Shown here: one piece after another, positions 5,185 to 10,093 of the stretch | Layout: each line of letters starts with the position of its first letter | Numbering within the stretch: the stretch's first letter is position 1 | Assembly (NCBI GenBank): GCA_945874535.1 | Contig: CAMCGZ010000003.1 | Span: 1-64,000 of the forward strand | DNA: 64,000 bases | Direction: 5' to 3' | From: Bdellovibrio sp. ZAP7 | GTDB lineage: Bacteria > Bdellovibrionota > UBA1018 > CAIMNF01 | Position numbers and translations under genes: made by a program | The notes under the pieces: model-generated | Databases searched by the model: none | The model's input: the letters and a program-made list of their open reading frames with translations, nothing else | Told to the model about the DNA's origin: nothing

Positions 5185-5310
5185 TTACTTCTTATGGACA
5201 GGGAATTTCGGGGTCGTGCCCTTGTTTTGCTCGCGACGCTTGCGGGCTTTGCCCTTGCGAGCCTGTTTCACTTTGCGGGCCATGCGGGTTTTTCCTGTAC
5301 GGGATGCCAT
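5185..5310 (-). CDS. 41-residue highly basic protein
   Basis: The ORF runs from an ATG at 5310 to a TAA at 5185-5187. It begins [20 protein letters not shown] and ends [10 protein letters not shown]. Seventeen of 41 residues are Lys or Arg and only one is acidic. AAGGAG lies 8 nt before the ATG, among the best Shine-Dalgarno sequences in the window, which argues strongly that it is translated. The composition resembles small ribosomal proteins and other RNA-binding peptides (compare the Thx type), but I do not recognise the family. It is 25 nt upstream of metK and probably co-transcribed with it. Confidence 0.75.
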
Positions 5311-5435: not shown

Positions 5436-6836
5436 ATGAAACCGTTCTGGATCCTGCCATTCCTGTTGCCTGGAGCCCTCCCTCTGGCCGGTGGTGCGCC
5501 TTCCCTGGAAGGTTCGCCGATTTATCTGGAGCCCGGAGAACAACGATCCCTCGGGATTCCCGCCCTCCGGCGCTTTTCGGTCAGCGGCGAATCGATCCGT
5601 TACCATCGAGTCCAAGGGACTGACCGACTCCTGATCAAAGCAGTCAAGAGCGGGATTTCCACGCTCTTTGTCGAAACCCTGACAGGGGGTCAAAGGACGC
5701 ACACCATCCGGGTCGAGACACCGAAGACCCCCCTCCTCCCAACCGACCTCCTGCGTGCCCTGAACCGTCTGACCGAAACCGAGGTGGTCCATGCAGGGAG
5801 GCTCCTGCTGCTTCGAGGGACCGTCACAGATCGAGACGAGGCCGAATCCATTCGTTTGCTCCGCGAGACTTTCCCGTCATGGATTGTCGACCAGACCCGG
5901 ATCGAAGAATCCTGGCTCGGGGCCTGCCTACAAGAACTTCGCCCCCTTCTGGCTCTTCACCCGGACCTGCGGTTCCAAAGTGGGGAGGGCCTGCTTCAAA
6001 TCGAAGGAAGCGCCCCCGACGAGCCCGGGCGGGAAATCCTTTTGCGAAAAATCAGAAGAATCCAGCCGCTGGCCCGGGTCCTGCTCGCGGTCGGAAAAGA
6101 AAGCGAGCCGACCCTTTATTTCAAAGTGTTTCTGCTCGAAACCCGCAAAGACCTGAATGGAACCTGGGGTGCCGAGTGGCCCGCTCTCTTCAGTGCCCGG
6201 GAACCCTTGCGGCCCTTGGACCTCACTTTGCGAGCCCTTTCAGAACAGGGGCGGGTCCGCATCCTGTCCTCGCCCGAGATCACCGTGAAATCACCCGGTA
6301 AAGCAGAGCTTTTTGCCGGAGGCGAAATCCCGATCCGTCAGCGGATCCGCTTCAATGATACGGTTCAGTGGAAAACCGTGGGACTGACTCTCAAACTCGA
6401 GGTACTGGAATTCCTGGGCAACCGTGTCCGGATCCGGGTCGAGACCGAAATGAGCCACTTGGCCGGCGAGCTCGATCACGACCAGATTCCAGGATTGAAG
6501 AGCAATCGCATTCGAACCGAAATCGAAGGCCAGCTCGATCGACCGGTGCTTTTGTCAGGCCTCCTTCAAGAAGACTTCCGCGAAACCGCACGCGGACTCC
6601 CCGGCTTGGCATCATTGCCCTGGATTGGAAAACTGTTCGGGAGTTCGGATTACCTCGAGCGCAAGTCCGAGCTGCACGCCGTACTCCTGCCACGAAAAGC
6701 CCTACCGCCCTCACCTCTGAAAAGTGTGGACCACGATGCTCCGGAAGGATGGATTCCTCCGCCCCGGAACCGGATTCCGCATGAAGAGCTCGAACGACTG
6801 AAGTCCGATCCGGAGTACCCGTGGAACCTGCTCTGA
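5436..6836 (+). CDS. Secretin of a Tad/type II-like secretion system (CpaC/RcpA-like)
   Basis: This 466-residue outer-membrane channel protein has a signal peptide (MKPFWILPFLLPGALPLAGGA). An N-terminal pilus-assembly/BON-like region (YLEPGEQRSLGIP ... IRYHRVQGTDRLLIKAVKSG) is typical of CpaC. The secretin core follows from about residue 250 (YFKVFLLETRKDL, LRALSEQGRVRILSSPEITVKSPGKAELFAGGEIP, LLSGLLQEDF, LPWIGKLFGS). It would form the ring through which Tad pilin or substrate passes. The ATG at 5436 is chosen for the signal peptide. It overlaps the ATPase gene by 16 nt, so the two are coupled. Confidence 0.88.
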   Translation: MKPFWILPFLLPGALPLAGGAPSLEGSPIYLEPGEQRSLGIPALRRFSVSGESIRYHRVQGTDRLLIKAVKSGISTLFVETLTGGQRTHTIRVETPKTPLLPTDLLRALNRLTETEVVHAGRLLLLRGTVTDRDEAESIRLLRETFPSWIVDQTRIEESWLGACLQELRPLLALHPDLRFQSGEGLLQIEGSAPDEPGREILLRKIRRIQPLARVLLAVGKESEPTLYFKVFLLETRKDLNGTWGAEWPALFSAREPLRPLDLTLRALSEQGRVRILSSPEITVKSPGKAELFAGGEIPIRQRIRFNDTVQWKTVGLTLKLEVLEFLGNRVRIRVETEMSHLAGELDHDQIPGLKSNRIRTEIEGQLDRPVLLSGLLQEDFRETARGLPGLASLPWIGKLFGSSDYLERKSELHAVLLPRKALPPSPLKSVDHDAPEGWIPPPRNRIPHEELERLKSDPEYPWNLL

Positions 6837-7777
6837 AGCTGAGTCCCTATCTCGAAGATCCGAGGGTCACCGATCTCTGCCTGAACGGACCCGCCCGACT
6901 CTTCATCGACCAAGGAAACGGAATGGAGCAGGTTCCGGAGTGGCAGGGATTTTCTGATGAATCCGATTTCCGGAGATTCATCCTCGATCAACTCTCGTCG
7001 ATCGGAAGATCCTGGGATGCGAAGCTCCCTTTTGTGGACGGGGTTTTCTTCGGCACCCACCGCGCACACGTGGCCTTTCCACCGATCGCAGCGGGAGGCA
7101 TTCACCTCTCGCTCCGGCGGCTTCCACGGGCGGAGGCGCTCGAGATCAGTCGCGCTCAGGCCCGCGCCCGTTGGCAGTTGGATCAAGTGGCGTGGGATCT
7201 CCTGGTTCATGGCGTCAGAGCGAGCGAGACCATCCTGATTTCGGGTAGCACCGGATCGGGAAAAACCACCTTGCTTTCGGATCTACTCGGACTCATTCCG
7301 GAACCCGAGCGGTTGATTGCCCTTGAAGACACAGCCGAAATTCGACCGGGGCATCCCCACTTCATCGGACTCCTGGCGCGTCCACCGAATGCAGACGGAT
7401 GCGGGGAGGTCACCATCAGGGACCTGCTCCGGCAGACCTTGCGAATGCGACCTGACCGGATTCTGCTCGGGGAATGCAGGGGAGAAGAAGTGCTCGATCT
7501 GCTTCAAGCATTGAACTCGGGGCACCGGGGAACCTTGGCCACACTGCACGCAAACTCGGCTCGAGACGCCCTTCGAAGGATCGAGCTCCTGGCCCTCCTG
7601 AATTCGCGCAGCGGAGTTTCTCCTGGCTGGATCCGCGAACTCCTCGCAAACGGCATTCAATGGGTGGCTCACCTTGACCGGATCGGTGGCATCCGCAGGA
7701 TCCGTAGCCTCATCCGGGTCGAGGGGATCGAGCGCGAGACCCTTTGTTGCCGGCCGGTTTACTCCGCTCTTCCTTGA
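6821..7777 (+). CDS. CpaF/TadA-family secretion ATPase
   Basis: This 318-residue cytoplasmic ATPase powers pilus or Tad-type secretion. Walker A is ISGSTGSGKTTLL (around residues 139-151), the Asp box is LIALEDTAEI, Walker B is RPDRILLGECRGEE and the His box is GHRGTLATLHANSA. It is shorter than typical CpaF (about 450) because the N-terminal extension is nearly absent. The start is GTG at 6821 with GGAG 5 nt upstream, inside the secretin tail. The end overlaps the convergent 59-residue gene by 68 nt. Confidence 0.9.
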   Translation: MEPALKLSPYLEDPRVTDLCLNGPARLFIDQGNGMEQVPEWQGFSDESDFRRFILDQLSSIGRSWDAKLPFVDGVFFGTHRAHVAFPPIAAGGIHLSLRRLPRAEALEISRAQARARWQLDQVAWDLLVHGVRASETILISGSTGSGKTTLLSDLLGLIPEPERLIALEDTAEIRPGHPHFIGLLARPPNADGCGEVTIRDLLRQTLRMRPDRILLGECRGEEVLDLLQALNSGHRGTLATLHANSARDALRRIELLALLNSRSGVSPGWIRELLANGIQWVAHLDRIGGIRRIRSLIRVEGIERETLCCRPVYSALP

Positions 7778-7889
7778 TTCGCACTTCTTCGATCGCCTGA
7801 CGGAAACCACGTGGAAAATGCCAGATTCGACCCCCAATCACGAGGGTGAACACAAGAAACAGCGCTGCCTTCTTGAAGAACAGGTCCAT
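7710..7889 (-). CDS. 59-residue single-helix membrane protein
   Basis: The start ATG overlaps the TGA of the TadB/TadC-like gene by one base (TGATG), a hallmark of translational coupling. The product begins MDLFFKKAALFLVFTLVIGG, one membrane helix, and continues as a charged, mostly basic tail (QAIEEVRIKEERSK, then Gly/Arg/Pro-rich). It could be an accessory subunit of the secretion apparatus or a divergent pilin-like protein, but it lacks the Flp pilin cleavage motif. Its last 68 nt are antisense to the end of the ATPase gene. Confidence 0.55.
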   Translation of the reverse strand: MDLFFKKAALFLVFTLVIGGRIWHFPRGFRQAIEEVRIKEERSKPAGNKGSRARSPRPG

Positions 7890-8905
7890 CACGATTCGAT
7901 TTCCCGGAGTGCATGAAGTAAAGCGGCCGCAAGAAGAACGAATACCGGAGGAAGCACGAAGAGAAACAGCGGCAGCAGGCAGCGGTTCGGGAGCGCTTCG
8001 AGTCGCTCCCTGATCTTGAGTCGGACCTCTTGCTGGTGGGATTTCGAGATCGACTCGATCCGGTCCAGGCAAGACCTTCCTTCGAGCAGTGCGAGCTGAA
8101 TGGATTTTTTCACTTCCCTTCCCACGCGGATCACCAGACCGGAAACCGTCTCATCGCCTGCGACGGAATCGTGCGTCTCGGATTGCCAGACTTCGGCTCC
8201 CCAAAGTGAGGCCAATGAGGGATCTCTGAACGCAAGCTCTTCGTGTTGCTTTCTCCATGCGAGATCGGGGGGCAATCCTCCCGAAACCAGAGACAGCATG
8301 CGCTCAAGAGCGGCCGGTGCCGACAAGAGCCACTGTCGTTGAGTGAACGGCAATCCGCCGTATCGAGCCTCTTCCGCCAAATTCAGAATCCAAACCGCCG
8401 AGAAGGAGGCGTAAACACTTCCACCTGCGATCAAGAGCAAGAACCCCGATCCGCCGGAGCCGATTCCGGGCATCATTTCGTACAGGGCGAAGCCGAACAA
8501 AGGGACCAGCCCCATCCCGGTCAGCGCCTGACTGAAGGCTTGGGTGGTCCGGGCACGGGCCTCCATCAAGCCATCGGCCTGGGCAAGTAAGGTCTCCTCC
8601 ATTCTCTTCAGCGTCGGGAGCACCGCCGAACCCGATTCCCTCAGATCACGGATTCCAGTGGCAATCAGAATTCCCCAAGGGGCGGGAAAGCCTCGAAGCC
8701 GGTCCCAATCCTTCTGCTCCGGGACGATTCCTCCTTCGAGTGTCTCTCCCAGGGTCTTCAAGACCGATGCGGCCGATCGAAGCTCCCGGGCCTGTTCGCC
8801 CCACTTCCATCCACTGAAAATCCGCTCCAGAAACGGAGTCAGATCCACCCATGAACGCTGAAGCACCCACAAACCGAGCCCCCATTGCCACCCGTTCGAG
8901 ATCAT
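7889..8905 (-). CDS. Tad inner-membrane platform protein, apparent TadB-TadC fusion
   Basis: This 338-residue protein has two GSPII_F-like halves. The first (residues about 35-170) runs from an amphipathic region (LKTLGETLEGGI) to EARARTTQAFSQALTGMGLVPLFGFAL, the TadB pattern. The second (about 205-335) starts LERMLSLVSGGLPPDLAW and ends RLEALPNRCLLPLFLFVLPPVFVLLAAALL, the TadC pattern. Tad systems usually encode TadB and TadC separately at about 300 residues each; here both halves are compressed. It would anchor the CpaF-type ATPase at the inner membrane. It is convergent with the secretin-ATPase pair and coupled to the 59-residue gene. The fusion is my reading of the repeat, not an alignment. 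Confidence 0.7.
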   Translation of the reverse strand: MISNGWQWGLGLWVLQRSWVDLTPFLERIFSGWKWGEQARELRSAASVLKTLGETLEGGIVPEQKDWDRLRGFPAPWGILIATGIRDLRESGSAVLPTLKRMEETLLAQADGLMEARARTTQAFSQALTGMGLVPLFGFALYEMMPGIGSGGSGFLLLIAGGSVYASFSAVWILNLAEEARYGGLPFTQRQWLLSAPAALERMLSLVSGGLPPDLAWRKQHEELAFRDPSLASLWGAEVWQSETHDSVAGDETVSGLVIRVGREVKKSIQLALLEGRSCLDRIESISKSHQQEVRLKIRERLEALPNRCLLPLFLFVLPPVFVLLAAALLHALREIES

Positions 8906-8935: not shown

Positions 8936-9175
8936 TCAGTTTCTTGACGGGGCTTGATCAAGGATTTCTACCATCGCACCCAGCGACTTCAACACGGCAT
9001 CGAGATCGGCGAGCGCCGACTCCGGGACCAACAGTTCGAGCTCGCGAGTCTGCGCATGATGCACGTGAGGAAGAGTCGAGTAGGCCACCAGACCCTCCTG
9101 AGCTTCAAGAACCGCGTAAACAAAAGCAGAATCACGCTTGTGAGTGCTAATAAAAATCTTGTGTGCGCGAGACAT
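8936..9175 (-). CDS. Small DUF4911-like protein
   Basis: This soluble 79-residue protein has an alternating pattern (KIFISTHKRDSAFVYAVLEAQEGL ... LELLVPESALADLDAVLKSL) suggesting a small alpha/beta fold. It resembles DUF4911, short proteins common in deltaproteobacteria, but that is from memory. It lies 30 nt upstream of the Tad platform gene on the same strand and is divergent from the CpoB-like gene by 21 nt. Function unknown. Confidence 0.6.
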   Translation of the reverse strand: MSRAHKIFISTHKRDSAFVYAVLEAQEGLVAYSTLPHVHHAQTRELELLVPESALADLDAVLKSLGAMVEILDQAPSRN

Positions 9176-9196: not shown

Positions 9197-10093
9197 ATGG
9201 CGTCAAACTGTACACCACGTCGTCTTCTCTTGATCGGACTCGGGTGTTGGCTCGGGACGCTTTCCTCTTGTGCGCACAAAGCCCCTGTGGCCGCACCCCT
9301 GACTCCGTCCGACCCTCTCCCCCCTCCACCGGTTGAAAGTGTCGAAGTCCGGATTTCCAGACTCCAAGACCGGATCATGGACCTCGAGACACGGATCTCA
9401 GCCCTGAATGACAAGATCAACCTGACCCAAGGTGTTCCACCGACTCCAACGGGCACGGTAGCAGACAAGCAGGCATTGGAGGTCGTTTCCACACCGGCCG
9501 CTCATGCCCTGATGATCCCCCAGTCCAAGGCCGCGCCCAAAGCACTCCCGAAAAAAGCGCCTGTGACCCCTGCTGCACATCCGGCCACCCGCAAAGCTTC
9601 ATTTGCCAGCGACCCTTCATTGGATCGGTTCCGCGAAGCCAAGATTCTTTTTGATACCCGCCGCTATTCGGATGCGATCGTGGAGTTCTCGGACTTCATC
9701 AAGAATGAGCCAGATCATCCTTTGGCTCCCTCGGCCCAGTACCATTTGGCCATGGGCTATCTGGAACAAAAAGAGTACAAATTAGCAGAAGACGAGTTCA
9801 ACCGGGTTCTGCTCTCGTACCCTCATTCAAGCCATGTCCCGGATACCCTGCTCGCACTCCACCGGGTCTCCGAGGCTCTGAAGAAGGCCCCTCGAGCCAC
9901 CTATTTCAAGGAAAAACTTCTTTCCCAGTTTCCGAATTCTCCCCAAGCCAAGGCTTTCTCGGCAACCCGTCCGTTACCCACAGAAAAGCCCGAGTCCGGA
10001 TTCGAATCTTCTGAAGAGCCCAAGCTGATTGAAAAGCCGGTCACACCGACCGCACCCGAACCTCCCGCCCACGGAGACGCTGCGCACTCATGA
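9197..10093 (+). CDS. CpoB/YbgF-like lipoprotein with TPR repeats
   Basis: The 298-residue precursor has a lipobox (LGTLSSC, Cys at about residue 19), so it is a lipoprotein. A coiled coil follows (VEVRISRLQDRIMDLETRISALNDKIN), then a Pro/Ala/Lys linker, then TPR repeats (FREAKILFDTRRYSDAIVEFSDFIKNEPDHPLAPSAQYHLAMGYLEQKEYKLAEDEF and onward). This coiled coil plus TPR order is that of CpoB/YbgF, which links the Tol-Pal machine to septal peptidoglycan synthesis. No tol or pal gene is adjacent, so the role is inferred. It overlaps the LysM gene by 4 nt. The ATG at 9197 is chosen for the lipoprotein signal. Confidence 0.82.
   Translation: MASNCTPRRLLLIGLGCWLGTLSSCAHKAPVAAPLTPSDPLPPPPVESVEVRISRLQDRIMDLETRISALNDKINLTQGVPPTPTGTVADKQALEVVSTPAAHALMIPQSKAAPKALPKKAPVTPAAHPATRKASFASDPSLDRFREAKILFDTRRYSDAIVEFSDFIKNEPDHPLAPSAQYHLAMGYLEQKEYKLAEDEFNRVLLSYPHSSHVPDTLLALHRVSEALKKAPRATYFKEKLLSQFPNSPQAKAFSATRPLPTEKPESGFESSEEPKLIEKPVTPTAPEPPAHGDAAHS

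Follow-up and report, generated by a model that had tools for sequence, protein, structure and literature searches.

What kind of machine is encoded by a Tad-type locus that holds a secretin, a motor and a membrane platform and no pilin gene? The question is raised by positions 5436-8905 of a contig of Bdellovibrio sp. ZAP7 (GenBank GCA_945874535.1, contig CAMCGZ010000003.1), whose first 64,000 nucleotides, here called the window, were analysed; the assembly (2.42 Mb) is 96% complete, and its nearest named relatives are mostly labelled Bdellovibrionales or Bdellovibrionota. An earlier note, made from the sequence alone, had described a secretin and a short CpaF-type ATPase facing a single platform protein with a TadB-like and a TadC-like half, in a locus smaller than any standard tad locus. 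The small size of the locus is confirmed, and Pfam and TIGR matches bear out its parts. Judging from the sequence comparisons set out below, we consider it probable (about 0.6) that this compact locus encodes the core, with motor and envelope parts, of a second Tad-type machine whose genes are dispersed and whose pilins would come from an operon on another contig, C8.

The secretin (466 aa, 5436..6836, forward strand; Pfam Secretin E=2.8e-24) is of the CpaC/RcpA type. A signal-peptide-like N-terminus is followed by a beta N-domain, two alpha/beta domains and the secretin domain; 408 columns match a canonical CpaC profile (E 6.5e-19), and the second best solved structure is RcpA (8odn). Its structural model, with well predicted N-domains and a poorly predicted pore, matches secretins of several systems in Foldseek. 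The start of the ATPase gene overlaps the secretin stop codon. This short ATPase (318 aa, GTG start, 6821..7777, forward strand) belongs to the CpaF/TadA family: it has the Walker A, Asp box, Walker B and His box motifs, matches T2SSE (7.8e-39) and the TadA family (TIGR03819, 3.4e-78, below that model's cut-off), has CpaF as its closest solved structures, and falls among CpaF/TadA in a tree built without other ATPase families. The type II secretion system (T2SS), which combines a GspE-type ATPase with GspF and pseudopilins, is a poor description of the locus, the ATPase scoring far better as TadA than as GspE (1.2e-9). The short ATPases of the order to which the genome belongs form one clade (support 100/100), apart from the clade of CpaF proteins with an N-terminal TadZ part (TadZ-CpaF; 100/99), in a tree whose branches are long and whose bootstrap is not fully settled.

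The platform gene (338 aa, 7889..8905) lies on the reverse strand, tail to tail with the other two. Against Pfam T2SSF the protein gives two stretches at E=4.1e-4, below the curated cut-off; scanned separately, the C-terminal half reaches 0.011 and the N-terminal half nothing, the N-terminal half of one relative giving 0.014. Since these half-scans are too weak for Pfam alone to decide the number of domains, profiles were compared with profiles. Half profiles were built from orthologues of the order, and TadB and TadC profiles from annotated plasmid tad loci and the canonical tad loci of the phylum; in the plasmid loci cpaF is followed by two T2SSF genes, which were taken as tadB and tadC. The N-terminal half (residues 1-186, 8348..8905) matches TadB at E 1.2e-8 (probability 95.6) and TadC with a probability of 0.8%, while the C-terminal half (residues 187-338, 7889..8347) matches TadC at E 5.7e-6 (85.5) and TadB with a probability of 0.5%. 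Because the TadB and TadC profiles match one another at 4e-22, this one-to-one assignment is informative. It persists with plasmid-only and phylum-only reference sets, the match of the C-terminal half to the four-sequence phylum TadC set being weak (E 0.001).

An AlphaFold2 model (mean pLDDT 84.6) likewise shows two repeats of a helical bundle with membrane helices, and its gene is a single open frame (338 codons), the aligned orthologues being fused in the same way. Sequence profiles and predicted structure together support two platform domains in one protein, TadB before TadC, as the earlier note had proposed. The Pfam part of the check that it had suggested remained weak and the profile-profile part sustained the proposal, so that a platform with only one GSPII_F domain, which the note had named as the finding that would overturn it, is not what was found. 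With Foldseek the model matched nothing in the PDB at E<=0.001, the only hits being unrelated helical proteins; sequence searches against solved structures found no match, and the platform was not found on plasmids.

Published descriptions of Tad machines give them two platform proteins (PMC6668835). In this order a single short polypeptide takes the place of both, and elsewhere in the same phylum a split version occurs. There, other families encode a related pair in neighbouring genes that mostly overlap, the first TadB-like (about 245 aa) and the second TadC-like (about 145 aa). This compact pair shares with the fused platform the same two half-domains and the short TadC; it differs in being two genes, in its neighbours and in having no CpaF nearer than about 10 kb. 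Archaeal type IV pilus platforms also carry two T2SSF domains per polypeptide, and TadB and TadC have been proposed to be fission products of such a two-domain archaeal gene, TadC corresponding to the N-terminal and TadB to the C-terminal domain (PMC6668835). By that published description the archaeal order is TadC-like then TadB-like. The order of the halves here reverses the archaeal one and equals that of tad operons, which favours an origin of the fused platform by the joining of neighbouring tadB and tadC genes. A literature search for TadB-TadC fusions, covering titles and abstracts of open-licence papers only, returned nothing relevant, which is weak evidence of novelty. Such a protein would be a minimal natural construct for the study of a CpaF motor driving a TadB/TadC platform. 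Several of the split pairs (among L182-L189, L191, L192 and L197-L201) lie beside Mla-type transporter genes. A 917-residue frame at L243:13625-16378 matches both CpaF and TadB queries and is either a possible TadZ-CpaF-TadB fusion or an assembly error.

The locus also holds a fourth gene, overlooked in the earlier note. It encodes a predicted single-pass membrane protein of 59 aa (7710..7889, reverse strand), and its start overlaps the platform stop codon (TGATG). One membrane-like stretch is followed by a GG..W.FP motif, and a frame with this motif stands directly downstream of the platform gene, often overlapping its stop, in 25 of 35 loci, the same position being kept in relatives. The changes in this gene are mostly synonymous (pN/pS 0.26-0.38), a figure blurred by a partial overlap with the 3′ end of the ATPase gene. 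The 59-aa protein may have a role in the machine.

Conservation of the locus is order-wide. In 32 of the 34 loci sampled in the order the ATPase and platform genes lie together, mostly surrounded by metK and the genes for the secretin and for DUF4911-, TPR- and LysM-proteins, so the gene set that the earlier note had proposed to look for in relatives is indeed present there, mostly beside metK. Full-length platforms were found by profile only in this order, with partial or weak matches elsewhere in the phylum; family f3, and families f7 and f8 of the same class, have divergent platforms, likewise found next to metK together with secretin and ATPase. The tail-to-tail arrangement is not constrained, because the platform gene is inverted in L158 and L159, and in genome G016 secretin and ATPase remain with metK while the platform is elsewhere. 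The absence of several standard tad genes from the locus could suggest a decayed remnant or recent strays of a full tad locus, the latter being the second outcome that the earlier note had named as fatal to its proposal. Yet the conserved synteny across the order, the intact ATPase motifs, the purifying selection on the three main genes (pN/pS 0.14-0.35) and the separate ATPase clade make this explanation highly implausible. In family f2 (L145-L147, L151-L153) a protein of about 340 aa, in some cases together with a small membrane protein, is encoded between ATPase and platform; these genes were considered as pilins and rejected, since by eye they look unrelated to pili.

In its CpaF-clade ATPase, TadB- and TadC-like domains and CpaC/RcpA-type secretin with N-domain, the compact locus resembles the Tad/Flp (type IVc) pilus. 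It differs in having one 338-aa protein in place of separate TadB and TadC genes, in the extra 59-aa membrane protein, and in the absence from the locus of pilins, TadZ/CpaE, TadE/F, CpaB/RcpC and a peptidase, with pilin genes apparently encoded elsewhere. A domain scan of the locus proteins found no pilin, TadZ, TadE/F/G, CpaB or peptidase domain, which agrees with the earlier note on the adjacent genes, and a regular expression for Flp/TadE-type signatures, which does pick up the pilins of contig C5, found none in the 64-kb window.

Where, then, could the missing parts come from? A search of the genome for a second Tad locus, which the earlier note had advised, found a canonical one at about C5:46.6-60.8k, which contains a secretin, CpaF, TadB and TadC of its own as well as Flp and TadE-like genes; a CpaB-like protein and a ParA-like N-terminal part preceding its CpaF were read from the sequence. 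TadZ-CpaF proteins occur in nearly all of the 27 genomes checked, a few of them as truncated or contig-edge frames, and each of these genomes has 2-4 CpaF-family ATPases. Contigs C6 and C8 carry secretin, ATPase and two-domain T2SSF platform genes of the T2SS or type IV pilus kind, the ATPases being GspE/PilB-like. One A24 prepilin peptidase was detected in the genome, at C8:102.3k, and none at the compact locus. There are also two orphan CpaF ATPases, on C7 and C24 (L020:4444-5823 and L021:4101-5255, both reverse strand), with no recognised platform or secretin alongside, and relatives often carry one or two such orphans. About 6 kb from an orphan CpaF, L270 (G000:C7:~8.9k) gives a weak TadE-family match (4.1e-4, below cut-off) within a long frame; the match may be due to chance, since on the opposite strand this region looks like a BMP-type lipoprotein locus.

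The search for pilins, likewise proposed in the earlier note, led beyond those of C5 to an orphan Flp/pilin-like operon. A family search for Flp gave a single place, C8:63.5k (E 0.007), and is not sensitive, as it missed the C5 pilins. The operon (G000:C8:62.1-63.7k; L272:5087-6659, reverse strand) is a set of tightly packed frames that ends at a pfkB-family gene and encodes a 58-aa Flp pilin (SGQGLSEYIILVMLIA...; Flp_Fap 0.0014), a TadE-like protein (SGQSLIEF..., start codon probably CTG), two further pilin-like frames and a one-TM (one membrane-spanning stretch) protein, all on the reverse strand. An Flp signature stands upstream of pfkB in all 24 genomes of the order that were checked, the present one included, and in none of 6 outside it. 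Genome G013 (97% complete) has only the short ATPase and a TadZ-CpaF, and keeps both the compact locus and the operon; orphan CpaFs are therefore not needed to explain the operon.

Dispersed pilin genes have a precedent. In B. bacteriovorus two flp genes, flp3 and flp4, lie apart from the tad operon; predation requires flp4, and those flp genes that were tested cannot replace each other, the pilins from outside the tad locus not being interchangeable with those from inside (PMC5430801). Flp genes of the same phylum, in Bdellovibrio and like organisms, are thus found away from the tad locus, and no second motor or secretin core is known to be linked to them. In another predatory bacterium, Myxococcus, two gene clusters together encode the Tad-like Kil system, an arrangement like that proposed here for the dispersed machine, with the difference that separate platform proteins (KilG and KilH), a CpaB homologue and pilins are among its gene products (PMC8460266).

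In the machine that we propose, the CpaF-like ATPase would power the fused TadB-TadC platform of the inner membrane; the platform in turn would build a filament of small Flp-type subunits and may also retract it. Supplied by the orphan operon at about 62.1-63.7 kb of C8 and probably matured by the one A24 prepilin peptidase detected, these subunits would be added from the membrane and pass the CpaC/RcpA-type secretin. That core and operon form one machine, and that a filament or pseudopilus is made, is our inference. For Flp pilins that Bdellovibrio-like bacteria encode away from their tad loci, the compact locus would be a candidate assembly machine. Searches for complete loci are likely to miss such systems, since their core and pilin genes lie apart.

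Several points weigh against this reading. The link between core and operon rests on co-occurrence within one order and may reflect only shared ancestry; Pfam backing for the orphan pilins is weak, being confined to the Flp_Fap match; no CpaB/RcpC or TadZ dedicated to the compact locus was found; and in f7 and f8 the compact locus is present with no operon upstream of pfkB, pilins elsewhere in these genomes not having been searched. It is also conceivable that the operon works with the canonical machine, which is likewise present in the genomes that carry it, or with an orphan CpaF, found in most of them, and that the compact locus uses pilins not yet recognised. This arrangement is quite improbable in view of G013, which has the operon and no orphan CpaF, and of the lack of other pilin candidates near the compact locus. 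The compact locus might also be a second engine and exit for the C5 pilins, serving the same filament: the canonical locus with its Flp and TadE genes accompanies it in nearly all genomes, and the peptidase would be shared anyway. We regard this as unlikely, as the canonical locus is already equipped with a secretin, CpaF, TadB and TadC, the ATPase of the compact locus belongs to a long-separated clade, and the orphan operon offers a further pilin set.

A role in secretion can be conceived in two ways. The secretin, ATPase, fused platform and 59-aa protein might suffice without a pilin or pseudopilin, which is the pilus-free exporter of the earlier note. The presence of a new small subunit speaks for it, as do the lack of pilin, TadE/F and peptidase genes at the locus in every genome examined and of Flp/TadE-type signatures, by regular expression, in the window and in most relatives' loci. 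To our knowledge, however, every characterised machine of the type IV filament family works via pilins or pseudopilins, and the co-occurring orphan operon weakens the proposal further; it has no positive support and is distinctly improbable. The family has been reviewed (PMC10191384). Less unlikely, if still doubtful, is Tad-derived secretion in which the minimal core and the small membrane subunit drive a short Flp pseudopilus that moves a substrate through the dedicated secretin, as in a T2SS and with no surface pilus. Of the two possibilities that the earlier note had left side by side, dependence on parts encoded elsewhere is the better supported, by the canonical Tad locus, the one A24 peptidase and the co-occurring operon.

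The genes around the locus are those that the earlier note had named: a domain scan identifies DUF4911-like, CpoB-like and LysM proteins. The secretin ends in a conserved tail (6744..6833, forward strand) with a PWN-type end, present as PWN, PWS or PWT in 27 of 31 orthologues and absent from the canonical CpaC of the phylum. As the C-terminus of P. aeruginosa RcpA binds the TPR pilotin TadD (PMC10499894), this tail may, by analogy, serve as a pilotin signal, and the TPR protein encoded nearby (YbgF/CpoB-like; 9197..10093, forward strand; TIGR02795 4.7e-22, below its cut-off), a putative lipoprotein with a lipobox read from the sequence, is a candidate pilotin and no more. The DUF4911-like protein (8936..9175, reverse strand; PF16256 1.6e-4, below cut-off), encoded upstream of the platform, is adjacent to it in family f1 and often kilobases away in f2; it appears to be a neighbour rather than a demonstrated part. 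The same holds for the CpoB-like and LysM genes, because both stay with the DUF4911-like gene even at loci whose platform gene lies kilobases off. Between metK and the secretin gene, a short, very basic frame is found on the reverse strand at about 5192-5309 of the window.

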